The notes under the pieces: model-generated
Database searches by the model: none
What the model was told of the DNA's origin: nothing
What the model saw: only the letters and a program-made list of their open reading frames with translations
Translations under genes and position numbers: made by a program
Source: Microcoleus sp. CAWBG506
GTDB lineage: Bacteria > Cyanobacteriota > Cyanobacteriia > Cyanobacteriales > Microcoleaceae
Direction: 5' to 3'
Length of the DNA: 64,000 nucleotides
Assembly (NCBI GenBank): GCA_020883125.1
Contig: JAHREW010000001.1
Location: forward strand, 213,673-277,672
In this document: positions 1,536 to 48,880 of the stretch, piece by piece
Layout of the letters: each line of letters opens with the position of its first letter
How positions within the stretch are numbered: the first letter of the stretch is position 1

Positions 1536-1808
1536 CCTTTCTCAAGTTTCTGGAGGTGTTCCGGGGCATTGGGAATCGGGAATAGGGCATTGTCAACTAA
1601 CAAGTAACAACTCCCTATTACCAACTAACAACTAACAACTAATACCAATTTAATGTGAAGTTGCACATATCTCGATCCCCCTAAATCCCCCTTAAGAAGG
1701 GGGACTTTAATTGGAATCTTGTCCCCCCCTTGTTAAGGGGGGCTAGGGGGGATCGGATTCTATGCAGCCTCATAAAAAATTGGTATAACCATTCCCATGC
1801 CCAATTCC
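1536..1808. repeat. Intergenic repeats, including a nested G/C-run palindrome
   Basis: The gap holds heptamer-like 'aactaac' repeats (about 1595-1645) and a palindromic element at 1673-1754. The element starts gatccccctaaatccccctt and ends with its near complement, enclosing two smaller hairpins made of C-run/G-run arms. The same C-run, ttggtaa, G-run motif forms the array inside proS near 47.7 kb. No gene is visible. The element lies between convergent gpsA and rel and may also end transcripts from both sides. Confidence 0.7.
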
Positions 1809-5478: not shown

Positions 5479-5665
5479 TTAGTTGACAGTTGACAGTTGA
5501 CTGTTAACTGTTGACTGTTGACTGTTGAGAGTAAAAAAAACAACAAACCACAAACCACAAATAACTAAGGACTAATAACCAATAACAAACAACAAATAAC
5601 AAATAACAAATAACCAATAACTAATAACTAATAACTAAGGACTAAGGACTAAGGACTAATAACTA
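5479..5665. repeat. Degenerate tandem heptamer repeats
   Basis: Two runs of short tandem units: gttgactgttaactgttgac-type heptamers at about 5479-5527, then aacaaat/aataact/aaggact units at about 5560-5660 reaching the start of the ABC ATPase gene. The same heptamer family is found at 34065-34160. No coding potential or terminator hairpin is visible. Confidence 0.8.
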
Positions 5666-7366
5666 ATGACTAATGAATATTCTTTGTTTTGCGTCGAAAA
5701 TCTACGAGTAGCTTATCCTCAGCGCCAGGGCCAATCCGGTTGGGCCGTTGACGGTGTTTCCCTGACACTGCAACCGGGGGAAAAGCTGGGATTAGTTGGG
5801 GAATCGGGATGCGGCAAGTCAACTTTGGGACGGGCGGCGATGCGTTTGCTGCCGGAGTCAACCCTGATTGAGGGGCAAGTTCTGTTTAGTGGAGAGTCAA
5901 TATTTGAAATGAATGCTTCGCGACTCAGAGGGTTTCGGGGCGAAGCTGTGGCACTGATTTTTCAAGACCCCATGACTCGCCTCGATCCTTTGATGACTGT
6001 CGGTCAACATTGTATTGAAACTTTGCAGGCTCATAGACCAAATTTGTCGAGAAAGGAAGCTAAAAAACGGGCGATTGAAGTTTTGGAATCTGTAAAAATT
6101 CCGGCTTCTCGTTGGTCGCAATTTCCTCATGAATTTAGTGGCGGAATGCGCCAAAGAGTGGCAATTGCTTTGGCTCTTTTGCTCGAACCTAAATTAATTG
6201 TGGCGGATGAACCAACTACCAGTTTGGATGTTACTGTCGCGGCCGAGATTTTGCAGGAATTAACGCGACTGTGTGCTGAACGGGGAACGGCTATTTTGTT
6301 GATTTCTCACGATTTGGCGATGGTGGCTGAGTATTGCGATCGCATTGCGGTGATGTATGGTGGCAAAGTGGTAGAAACCGGACCCGTGGAGCAAGTTTTT
6401 AAACAGCCACAACACGAATATACTCGATCGCTCTTAAAAGCAGCTTTGCACATTCAGAAGCAAGAAGACAACCCCCTACCCGGAGAAGATAACCCCCCCC
6501 AAGAAAGTCAACCCCTCCCTAACTCCATGGAAGGGGGAAACGAGGAAAGCAATTCTCCTCTGTTGAGGGTGACAAATTTGCAGCAGCACTACAGTTTAGA
6601 AAGCAATTTATTAGAACAGTTATTTTCTAGGAAACGTGATGTAATTAAAGCAGTAGATGGGGTTAATTTCCAGCTAAAACAGGGAGAAATCCTAGGGCTT
6701 GTAGGGGAGTCAGGCTGTGGCAAAAGTACATTGTCACGGACGATTTTGCAGCTAATTCCCTCCACTGGTGGCAAAGTGGAATTTCAGGGAATAAATTTGA
6801 CAGCCCTGACTAGGGATGCTGTCAGGAAACACCGCCGCCAAATGCAAATGGTATTTCAAGACCCCCACGCTTGTTTGAATCCGATGATGACTGTGGGAGA
6901 AAGTATTGCTGACCCTTTATTGATTCACAAACTAGCTAATACCCGCGAAGCTAAAAGACAAGTAATCCAAATGTTAGAGCGGGTGGGTTTGACTCCTGGG
7001 GAAGATTTTTTTAGTCGCTATCCAACGGAATTGTCAGGAGGACAACAGCAGCGGGTTTCCATCGCCCGCGCTTTGATTACTCGCCCACAATTGATTATTT
7101 GCGACGAACCGGTGAGTATGCTGGATGCGAGTGTTCAAACGCAGGTTTTAGAACTGATGTTGGAATTGAAGCAGGAATTTAATCTCACTTATTTGTTTAT
7201 TACCCATGATTTGTGGGTGGCGCGATTTTTTTGCGATCGCATTGCAGTGATGAATGCTGGCAAAATTGTGGAAATTGGCAAGACTAGGGATATTTTTACG
7301 AATCCACAGCACCCTTACACTCAGCAGTTGTTGCAAGCGGCTCCTTTATTGGCTCGAACCAATTGA
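5666..7366 (+). CDS. Fused double-ATPase ABC transporter protein, peptide/nickel (Dpp/Opp) type
   Basis: A 566-residue protein with two complete ABC ATPase domains equivalent to DppD and DppF joined. Each has Walker A GESGCGKST (about residues 45 and 349), signature motifs SGGMRQRVAIA (about 157) and SGGQQQRVSIA (about 457), Walker B followed by Glu (IVADEPTTSLD and IICDEPVSMLD), and an H-loop (LISHDL, FITHDL). The Dpp/Opp C-terminal motif (PQHEYTRSLL, PQHPYTQQLL) ends each half. It would energise import of oligopeptides or similar solutes; permease and binding-protein genes are not adjacent. The linker (about 272-300) is low-complexity and rich in Pro, Glu and Asn. Confidence 0.93.
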   Translation: MTNEYSLFCVENLRVAYPQRQGQSGWAVDGVSLTLQPGEKLGLVGESGCGKSTLGRAAMRLLPESTLIEGQVLFSGESIFEMNASRLRGFRGEAVALIFQDPMTRLDPLMTVGQHCIETLQAHRPNLSRKEAKKRAIEVLESVKIPASRWSQFPHEFSGGMRQRVAIALALLLEPKLIVADEPTTSLDVTVAAEILQELTRLCAERGTAILLISHDLAMVAEYCDRIAVMYGGKVVETGPVEQVFKQPQHEYTRSLLKAALHIQKQEDNPLPGEDNPPQESQPLPNSMEGGNEESNSPLLRVTNLQQHYSLESNLLEQLFSRKRDVIKAVDGVNFQLKQGEILGLVGESGCGKSTLSRTILQLIPSTGGKVEFQGINLTALTRDAVRKHRRQMQMVFQDPHACLNPMMTVGESIADPLLIHKLANTREAKRQVIQMLERVGLTPGEDFFSRYPTELSGGQQQRVSIARALITRPQLIICDEPVSMLDASVQTQVLELMLELKQEFNLTYLFITHDLWVARFFCDRIAVMNAGKIVEIGKTRDIFTNPQHPYTQQLLQAAPLLARTN

Positions 7367-34028: not shown

Positions 34029-34064
34029 ATATTTGGGAATTGGGAATTGGGCATGGGGCATTGT

Positions 34065-34160
34065 TGACTGTTGACTGTTGACTGTTGGCTGTTGACTGTT
34101 GGCTGTTGACTGTTAACTAATGACTGCTGACTAATGACTGCTGACTACTGACTACTGACT
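34065..34160. repeat. Tandem heptamer repeats (ttgactg)
   Basis: About twelve tandem heptamers of the ttgactg/ttggctg/ctgacta type fill the gap and enter the last codons of the VOC gene, whose final residues (EKVSSQ) are read from this repeat. The same family is at 5479-5527. Confidence 0.8.
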
Positions 34161-41913: not shown

Positions 41914-42077
41914 TCGGGGTAGCGAGGAGGACACGGCAGTGCCGTTTCCCTACCCCGATTAATTGTAGGGACACGGCAGTGCCGTTTCCCTACCCCGATT
42001 AATTGTAGGGACACGGCACTGCCGTGTCCTGACTACCCCGATTAATTGTAGGGACACGGCACTGCCGTGTCCTGACT
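41914..42077. repeat. 40-43 bp tandem repeats containing gacacggcactgccgtgtc palindromes
   Basis: At least four units of the type taccccgattaattgtaggg plus acacggcagtgccgt follow each other with a period of 40-43 bp. In the last two units the core becomes a perfect palindrome (gacacggcactgccgtgtc). The sequence is typical of dispersed cyanobacterial repeats; related cores occur near 8590 and 60390. Confidence 0.85.
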
Positions 42078-46595: not shown

Positions 46596-48614
46596 ATGCG
46601 ACTCTCTCAAATGCTTTTTGTCACCCTGCGGCAAGACCCAGCAGAAGCAGAAATTCCCAGCCACAAACTATTACTCCGTGCGGGATACATCCGCCGCATC
46701 GGTAGCGGCATTTACGCTTATCTGCCTTTGATGTGGCGTGTACTCAAAAAAGTCTCCCAAATTGTGCGGGAAGAAATGGACGCTACTGGCGCTCAAGAAT
46801 GCCTCTTACCACAACTCCAACCGGCCGATTTGTGGCGGGAATCGGGGCGCTGGGATACCTATACTCAAGCTGAAGGTATCATGTTTGCTCTCACAGACCG
46901 TCGCGATACAGAATTGGGATTGGGTCCAACTCACGAAGAAGTAATTACTACAGTTGCTAAGGATATGATTCGTTCTTATCGGCAATTGCCTACACATCTG
47001 TATCAAATTCAAACTAAATTTCGTGATGAAATTCGCCCGCGTTTTGGCTTGATGCGCGGTCGTGAATTTATTATGAAGGATGGCTATTCTTTCCACACTA
47101 GCGAAGAAAGCCTGAAAAAAACTTATCAGGATATGGCTCAAGCTTACAGCAATATGCTAAGGCGATCGGGCTTGCAATTCCGAGCAGTAGATGCTGATTC
47201 CGGAGCCATTGGCGGCTCTGGTTCCCAAGAATTTATGGTGTTGGCGGAAGCTGGGGAAGATGAAGTTCTCTACACCGAAGATGGTCAGTATGCTGCTAAT
47301 TTAGAAAAGGCTGTTTCCATACCTGCTGATGCCGAAATCTCGCCTTTTACAACTTTTGAAAAGCGGGAAACACCGGGAACAGAAACTATTGAAAAACTCT
47401 GTAAGTTTCTCAAGTGTTCTTCTACTCAAGTTGTCAAAAATGTACTTTATGAGGCAGTTTATGACAGCGGTACGACTGTATTGGTACTGGTCAGCCTTCG
47501 TGGCGACCAAGATGTTAATCAGGTAAAATTGCTGAATGAATTAACCAAATTAGCTGGAAATTATCAAGCAAAAACAATCCTATTTTTGACTGTTCCAGAT
47601 GCGGAAGCTCAGCAAAAATGGGCTGCTAAATCTTTGCCTCTGGGTTATATGGCTCCCGATGTTGCTGATGATTACATTGCCTCGAACCCCCCCCAACCCC
47701 CCCTTGGTAAGGGGGGGCAACAAGAGTCAAATTCCCCCCTTGGTAAGGGGGGCCAACAAGAGTCAAATTCCCCCCTTGGTAAGGGGGGCCAACAAGAGTC
47801 AAATTCCCCCCTTGGTAAGGAGGGCCAACAAGACTCAAATTCCCCCCTTGGTAAGGGGGGCCAACAAGAGTCAAATTCCCCCCTTGGTAAGGGGGGGCAG
47901 GGGGGGGTATCTCCCAAGTTTTTGCGTTTAGTCGATCGCACCGCAGTTGACTTGACAAACTTTGTCACTGGCTCGAACGAATCAGGATACCACGTTGTGG
48001 GAGCAAATTGGGGCAAAGAATTTGACTTACCAAGTTTAGCAGTAGATGTCAGGAAGGCCAAAAAAGGCGATCGGGCTGTTCACAATCCTGAACAAACATT
48101 GCAAACCGCCAGAGGTATCGAAGTCGGCCACATCTTTCAATTAGGGACAAAATACTCCCTAGCAATGGGCGCTACCTACACCAACGAACAAGGCGAAGAA
48201 ATGCCCTTAGTTATGGGTTGTTACGGCGTCGGTGTGTCCCGCTTAGCTCAATCTGCTGTAGAACAATCCTACGACAAAGACGGGATAATTTGGCCAGTGG
48301 CGATCGCCCCCTATCACGTTATCATCAGCATCCCCAATATTTCCGACACTCAACAAATGGAAGTCGCCGAAAAACTCTACGCAGAACTCAATCAATCTGG
48401 CATTGAAACTCTGTTAGATGACCGCGATGAACGTGCAGGAGTTAAATTCAAAGATGCGGATTTAATCGGCATTCCATATCGGATTGTTCCCGGTCGTTCC
48501 CTGAAATCTGGTAAAGTTGAAGTGGTTGAAAGAGCGACTCACAAATCCCAAGAAATTCTCATTGAAGAAGTAAATTCTACCTTGAAACAATGGATTCAGG
48601 AAGCTATCCAATGA
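46596..48614 (+). CDS. proS: Prolyl-tRNA synthetase with an in-frame repeat insertion
   Basis: ProRS charges tRNA-Pro. The 672-residue bacterial-type enzyme has class II motifs ([50 protein letters not shown]), an INS editing domain and the C-terminal anticodon domain ([10 protein letters not shown]...[20 protein letters not shown]). Residues about 364-438, at the end of the INS domain, are foreign: they encode NPPQPP and then six PLGKGG units separated by QQESNS. On both sides the protein is normal ([11 protein letters not shown], then [15 protein letters not shown]). As the only proS visible and an essential gene, it must tolerate the insert if the assembly is right. Confidence 0.92.
47687..47907. 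repeat. 36-bp tandem palindromic repeat array inside proS
   Basis: Six copies of the hairpin ccccccttggtaagggggg are separated by caacaagagtcaaatt spacers, giving a 36-bp unit (exactly 12 codons). One copy reads ggaggg and gac instead of gggggg and gag. Because the unit is a multiple of three, copy-number change keeps the frame. The same kind of C-run/G-run palindrome sits between gpsA and rel (1673-1754). Confidence 0.95.
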
Positions 48615-48632
48615 AAAAATTTCCGGGAATTT

Positions 48633-48880
48633 AAGGTTAGTAGTAAGGACTTCATTCCTTTACTGTGAAAAATTAAAGCAATAAAGTCCTCACTACCAAC
48701 GATATTTTCATCAGAGCTAAGGTTCGTAGTCAAGACTTCAGTCCGTTCGTGTTAGGATGGACAGGACTATAGTCTTCACTACCAACGATATTTTCATCGG
48801 GGCTAAGGTTCGTAGCAAGGACTTCAGTTCTTTCCTGTTAGCATGGACAGGACTATAGTCCTCACTACAAAGGTTTTTTT
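48633..48880. repeat. Three 86-bp tandem repeats downstream of proS
   Basis: Units start at ggtt 48635, 48721 and 48807, an exact 86-bp period. Each contains a nearly self-complementary part, such as aaggacttcagtcctt-like and gactatagtcctcactac, and the first two end with accaacgatattttcatc. They fill most of the 317-bp gap. A related perfect inverted repeat is at 53976-54028. Confidence 0.88.

Follow-up and report, generated by a model that had tools for sequence, protein, structure and literature searches.

The window, i.e. the whole stretch of 64,000 nucleotides that was analysed, belongs to a genome of 6.03 Mb (81 contigs, 95.7% complete), of the Microcoleus/Tychonema type as judged by the similarity of its proS, and carries a prolyl-tRNA synthetase (ProRS) gene with a hairpin array inside its reading frame. 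The features concerned are the following.

46596..48614, + strand: proS, prolyl-tRNA synthetase with editing (INS/YbaK-type) domain, 672 aa
47687..47907, + strand: in-frame array of six C-run/G-run hairpin units with a period of 36 bp (repeat searches, translation)
47687..47716, + strand: left end of the array, tail CCCCCCCCAA and first hairpin (inverted-repeat arms)
47878..47907, + strand: right end of the array, last hairpin and tail CAGGGGGGGG, inverted relative to the left end (inverted-repeat arms)
1673..1754, no strand assigned: related non-coding hairpin doublet in a larger ATACCAATTT palindrome (repeat search, flank reading)

The proS product is a ProRS of the bacterial type with catalytic, editing and anticodon domains; in a profile search its ORF scored 767 bits against the proline--tRNA ligase equivalog TIGR00409, for which the cut-off is 307. 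A second, normal proS, considered in an earlier note on this DNA, was looked for in the genome at its 95.7% completeness, and no other full-length copy was found.

The array extends from the start of a C-run at 47687 to the end of a G-run at 47907, and the position, the six units and the period of 36 bp given in the earlier note were all recovered. Tandem Repeats Finder delimited it to 47698-47896 (period 36, 96% matches, score 377), and the copies found by the repeat search are spaced at exactly 36 bp. The unit is composed of a C-run tail followed by a C7-TTNNNAA-G7 hairpin, and the G-run of the fourth of the six hairpins is interrupted (AAGGAGGG). The ORF (46596-48614) reads through the whole array, as had been claimed, in 12-residue units with small variations and a peptide closing in QGG, the insert beginning with the polyproline NPPQPP. 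In this way 71 aa are added to a loop of the editing domain, and the ProRS of relatives without an insert at this site are about 600-601 aa long. The observation of an in-frame array is thus confirmed, and the interpretation first given to it is partly supported. The outer arms (47686-47716 and 47878-47908) form an inverted repeat of 84% complementarity, and no target-site duplication was seen at the borders of the array. The non-coding doublet at 1673-1754, which had been taken for a repeat of the same kind, is indeed related to the array but differs from it in context, loops (AAG and GTT), spacing (38 bp) and the larger ATACCAATTT...AAATTGGTAT palindrome in which it lies. Immediately 3' of proS lies another tandem repeat, with a unit of 86 bp in 2.8 copies (window 48632-48868).

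The earlier note had left the fold of the insert to be modelled; AlphaFold models it as disordered, with a pLDDT of about 25-30 and without secondary structure, and gives mostly 70-90 for the editing domain flanking it. The model of the whole ProRS is poor (mean pLDDT 55), and a Foldseek search with it placed ProRS structures on top, yet with a TM of only 0.2; therefore the local confidence alone was used. At the RNA level the array region has a predicted fold of -140.5 kcal/mol against a mean of -107.6 for shuffled sequences (z -6.2), in which distant units are paired together instead of forming six separate hairpins; one unit hairpin alone amounts to about -14 to -17 kcal/mol. The window contains no Rfam match at the gathering score.

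Hairpins in other genes of the genome

The same genome has 123 exact copies of the hairpin core CCCCCCTTNNNAAGGGGGG and none of its reversed control, so that these copies are not due to chance; all 29 genomes of the genus carry it (23-259 per genome), again with no copy of the reversed control. Near-matches to the core number at least 110 forward and at least 87 reverse in the own genome, the two sets overlapping because the core is nearly palindromic. A first sample comprised 57 sites with 104 hairpins (slightly looser pattern) among the matches listed in a search centred on the GGT loop, and since it favours this loop, sites of the exact core were added in contig order, covering about the first 50 of the 123 cores (contigs C1-C13). 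A site was called coding if the hairpin lay in frame in an ORF no shorter than 240 aa, with 40 aa or more to each side of it. By this rule 39 of the 63 sites examined are coding and are distributed over 34 ORFs; the share was 37/57 in the first sample and 18/31, in 15 ORFs, in the contig-order sample.

Each of the 34 matches a family of Pfam or NCBIfam; one more ORF, L241, was scanned as well, had no family match and is not counted among them. The products named by NCBIfam include ProS, ThiL, PurL, RsmE, HisC and MenD, and among those named by Pfam are leucyl-tRNA synthetase, NAD-dependent DNA ligase, DNA polymerase III gamma/tau (dnaX), CobN/Mg-chelatase, shikimate dehydrogenase (aroE), Mur ligase, asparaginase, apolipoprotein N-acyltransferase, pseudouridine synthase, S9 peptidases and several NB-ARC, CHAT, WD40 and kinase proteins. 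The hairpin therefore recurs in many conserved genes, and proS, which the earlier note had considered an unusual host, is instead one of at least 34 ORFs of a single cyanobacterial genome that are run through by one in-frame hairpin family, often as expandable tandem arrays. According to a hand count, family matches flank the hairpin on either side or span it in 27 of the 34, including two (L234, L247) that qualify only through a match below the Pfam cut-off, and are confined to one side in the remaining seven (L005, L209, L222, L224, L227, L244, L285). The second coding site of L232 has a weak match that may be due to chance, and the stretch of L237 contains no site with the pattern used.

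Coding sites mostly have the loops GGT/ACC and GCT/AGC, and non-coding sites have others. The peptides encoded fall into three main types (PLxKGG, PPLxRG and PPYQGG); the use of three types indicates that no single peptide is required.

The spacing between hairpins follows the reading frame in genes only. In the own genome (63 sites) it is a multiple of three in 35/37 coding against 4/17 non-coding cases (Fisher p = 2e-7), a comparison in which the ORF-based coding call leans partly to open arrays; the presence of conserved domains in the same ORFs makes accidental ORFs unlikely. The first 57 sites alone gave 34/36 against 2/11 (p = 2e-6), and a count per array, made by hand, 16/18 against 0/8 (p = 3e-5). 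Off-frame spacings were found within two genes of this genome (L209, L232), both of which remain open because most frames of the hairpin are without a stop. The same tendency was seen outside the own genome: 10/11 coding against 0/1 non-coding at the named loci around proS, and 39/42 against 2/10 at other fetched loci. The 80 named loci, which were not selected for repeats, contain 11 sites, five coding, all in proS, and six non-coding, and at the other fetched loci, which were partly selected for repeats, 29 of 40 sites are coding. The abundance in genes is accordingly demonstrated for the own genome and some members of the genus, not for cyanobacteria at large.

Two other enzymes vary in length in one loop, between fixed anchors, and bear in-frame repeats of this kind there. 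In leucyl-tRNA synthetase (L248-L274) the stretch before the anticodon domain, containing PPYQGG/PPCQGG-type units, measures 42 to 84 aa in the 26 of 27 genus loci that were read, and in PurL (L177, L173) the distance between the same anchors is 94 aa in the own genome and 193 aa in G002, a Mur ligase of which also carries a hairpin array. Arrays were seen by eye in a SNF2-type helicase and a TPR protein of G018; the helicase ORF (L174, G018:C9:61500-68000) also has, by eye, a long intein-like insertion in its ATPase region.

Alleles of the ProRS loop

The set of genus genomes searched for proS comprised 29, of which 26 could be read across the site, or 27 counting G015, where the gene is split; G005, which is fragmentary, and G010, without a proS-grade match, are in neither count. 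Arrays are present in 7 of the 27 readable genomes and an 8-residue loop in the other 20. The array-free loop, e.g. AGSKEVNS, is thus the state of 20 of the 26 genomes read across, among relatives for which absence of the array or another copy number had been predicted. The number of hairpins per allele is six in G000, five in G001, seven in G018 and in G019, three in G012 and two in G007, so that the gain and loss of 12-codon units that had been supposed to leave proS open is matched by same-site alleles of differing length. G009 (7% contamination) has two proS genes, both array-free. The alleles of three named records (L039, L062, L070) are identical to those of G012, G001 and G019, respectively, and these are probably the same genomes.

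The seventh array belongs to G015, apparently the same as L053: its contigs break exactly at the site and the array is visible on the second one, which demonstrates that such arrays can break assemblies. The contig of this Tychonema assembly (L053; L142, G015) stops exactly at the proS array site. The arrays are of relevance to assembly, as this break illustrates, and to annotation, where the insert might be mistaken for a domain.

The linkers of the arrays vary between genomes and are mostly common to the units of one allele, as expected if expansion occurred per lineage. The hairpin loops occur in either orientation, TTGGTAA (PLGKGG) and TTACCAA (PLTKGG). All seven filled Microcoleus alleles have the right border GTATCTCCNAAG in common, and the empty alleles, in those printed, have GTAAATTCTAAG or nearly so at that border; because of this common border, independent insertion alone cannot account for the genus pattern. 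On a proS tree computed without the insert and with six filled rows (G015 left out), presence of the array takes four changes to explain, of which well-supported branches enforce three, compared with a mean of 5.6 in a shuffle test in which 30 of 500 shuffles were as low as four. Taken from border and tree, the filled alleles of the genus would have had one origin, followed by losses or by the exchange of short segments across lineages.

The same loop was read in other cyanobacteria. Of 80 named loci around proS among the matches listed, 77 were read across the site; the others are L053, L059, in which the ProRS protein is longer, and L078. A further 33 stretches with proS were taken at family or order level and 31 of them read; as these were picked by group or for a long open frame, no rate was derived from them. 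Inserts with C/G-run hairpins at this loop were found in Planktothrix rubescens (L040, to which L160 is identical at this place), in Coleofasciculus together with two genomes of family f14 from the same order (L041, L179, L181) and, as a single hairpin, in a genome of f32 (L189), all with borders and frames unlike those of the Microcoleus array. The insert of Westiellopsis and Pelatocladus (L042, L043) is C/G-rich and degenerate. The loop has apparently been filled independently in at least three further cyanobacterial lineages, an independence suggested by the differing borders. At five further loci (L044-L048) this loop holds a non-repeat insert of about 70-80 aa; the hosts are several Nostocales, one uncultured cyanobacterium and Picosynechococcus, and the inserts of L045-L047 look, by eye, clearly related to one another. 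The finding of inserts in many lineages at one loop marks it as a tolerant spot of ProRS.

A natural series of ProRS alleles with 0, 2, 3, 5, 6 and 7 hairpins is thus available in close relatives. Together with the in-frame hairpin family, it makes the cost of such inserts to an essential enzyme, and the arrival and movement of intragenic repeats, directly testable.

Origin of the array

The hairpin resembles REP/REPIN elements in being a short palindrome of high copy number with an unpaired tail (at many sites, not all), in its intragenic copies and in its inverted doublets (e.g. ACC/GGT at L244 and AGT/ACT at L235), the remaining sites being single or of the same orientation. The GTAG/CGTC tag was not seen at the hairpin foot in the flanks of 57 sites read by eye; the foot is CAA or CTA followed by the G-run, which would set the hairpin apart from REP/REPIN (GTAG, CGTC). 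PMC3733652 names GTAG families from cyanobacteria, GTAG-12, -15 and -16. Among 66 tails, 7 continue into TAG at their outer end (3/45 coding, 4/21 non-coding). Several intergenic copies lie inside larger ATACCAATTT palindromes and are MITE-like, and no such palindrome was seen around intragenic copies in the flanks read.

The search for an autonomous element covered Y1_Tnp, with 12 matches in the own genome, and no mobilising enzyme for the hairpin was found in it. One of the Y1_Tnp genes is RAYT-like (L123, G000:C26:4840-5652) and has three hairpins about 200-370 bp upstream (L123:1099, 1174, 1244). Since matches to it at E<=1e-20 occur in only 5 of the 29 genus genomes, against hairpins in 29 of 29, it is not claimed as the mobiliser. 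A second copy of this gene, on contig C14, is interrupted by stops.

In-frame palindromic repeats are known from Rickettsia and several other REP-rich bacteria, according to PMC3733652, which also mentions REPs lying wholly within genes, including those of tRNA synthetases and DNA ligase, and intragenic REP clusters encoding 43-82 aa in Thauera and R. conorii. The Rickettsia palindromic elements (RPE), of about 150 bp (PMC10969869), are described in PMC3733652 and PMC10969869 as occurring in frame in many unrelated, likely functional protein genes. The hairpin is comparable to them as a palindromic repeat in frame in many unrelated conserved genes, a likeness of kind, not of descent, and drawn from description; it differs in belonging to another phylum and in consisting of hairpins of ~35 bp that grow as tandem arrays.

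The reading preferred here, to which a probability of roughly 0.8 is given, is that the array is a REP/REPIN-like palindrome that came to lie in a tolerant loop, was selected in frame, expanded and contracted in tandem, and is RPE-like in its action. It would have arrived in the editing domain of ProRS, at a short loop, as a mobile doublet with inverted ends, the original doublet perhaps resembling the two-hairpin allele still present in G007. Slippage or recombination would then have driven its expansion, tandem growth and contraction probably proceeding separately in each lineage, and array-bearing segments may have been exchanged between lineages. Purifying selection would retain only in-frame, stop-free copies in tolerant loops, the tolerated peptide presumably being disordered and rich in Pro, Gly, Lys and Gln; given such selection, ProRS is presumed to be working and the insert to be close to neutral.

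Another explanation might be that the array is retained because ProRS is tuned by its peptide or by the hairpins of its mRNA, either through the dynamics of the editing domain or by way of a structured stretch, rich in proline, at which translation is slowed and charged tRNA-Pro sensed. An RNA fold very stable for its composition, the polyproline at the start of the insert and the filling of the ProRS loop in several lineages are in line with such a function; nevertheless, 20 of 26 relatives manage without the array, copy number, linker and loop sequence vary among close relatives, and a similar peptide is found in enzymes unconnected with proline, all of which makes it unlikely. Hairpins and homopolymer runs promote replication slippage, and these, together with the perfect tandem period and the lack of a target-site duplication at the borders, might also suggest a G/C-rich micro-repeat born within proS by slippage, with no mobile element involved. 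Slippage, however, accounts for expansion and not for arrival, the ends of the array are inverted relative to each other, and the same core with similar tails recurs in a large number of unrelated genes and, as doublets, between genes, so that a purely local birth is very unlikely. That the array is a collapsed or chimeric repeat of the contig can hardly be credited: the G015 assembly is broken exactly at the array site, but separately deposited records (L039, L062, L070) have arrays of differing lengths at the same site, always in frame.

Beyond the mobile-palindrome reading of the proS array, it may be speculated, with considerable doubt, that the filamentous cyanobacteria considered here harbour a genome-wide population of translated hairpins, in which dozens of core enzymes would have acquired length-variable disordered loops from one family. 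Short recombination would carry array-bearing segments from species to species, and housekeeping proteins would find in the loops a permanent and rapidly adjustable supply of linkers and mRNA structure.

Two things appear to be new: that a cyanobacterial hairpin lies in frame, and can expand in tandem, in so many housekeeping genes, and that one ProRS loop has been filled repeatedly. No description of the hairpin was found in the open-licence literature by titles and starts of abstracts, a scope outside which Elhai et al. 2008 falls; very small mobile repeated elements in cyanobacteria are reportedly treated there, and the hairpin is like them in being very small, mobile-looking and cyanobacterial. 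A search of the open-licence literature for the peptides PLGKGG, PLTKGG, PPLVRGG and NPPLLRGG gave no relevant paper, the sole match being human ZMYND8. The window also contains another palindrome, GGACACGGCACTGCCGTGTCC, as a 40-bp tandem array of 3.5 copies (41929-42072), and heptanucleotide tandem repeats of the CAACTAA, AATAACT and TGTTGAC types (1594-1642, 5481-5674 and 34062-34160), which resemble the short tandem repeats of filamentous cyanobacteria.
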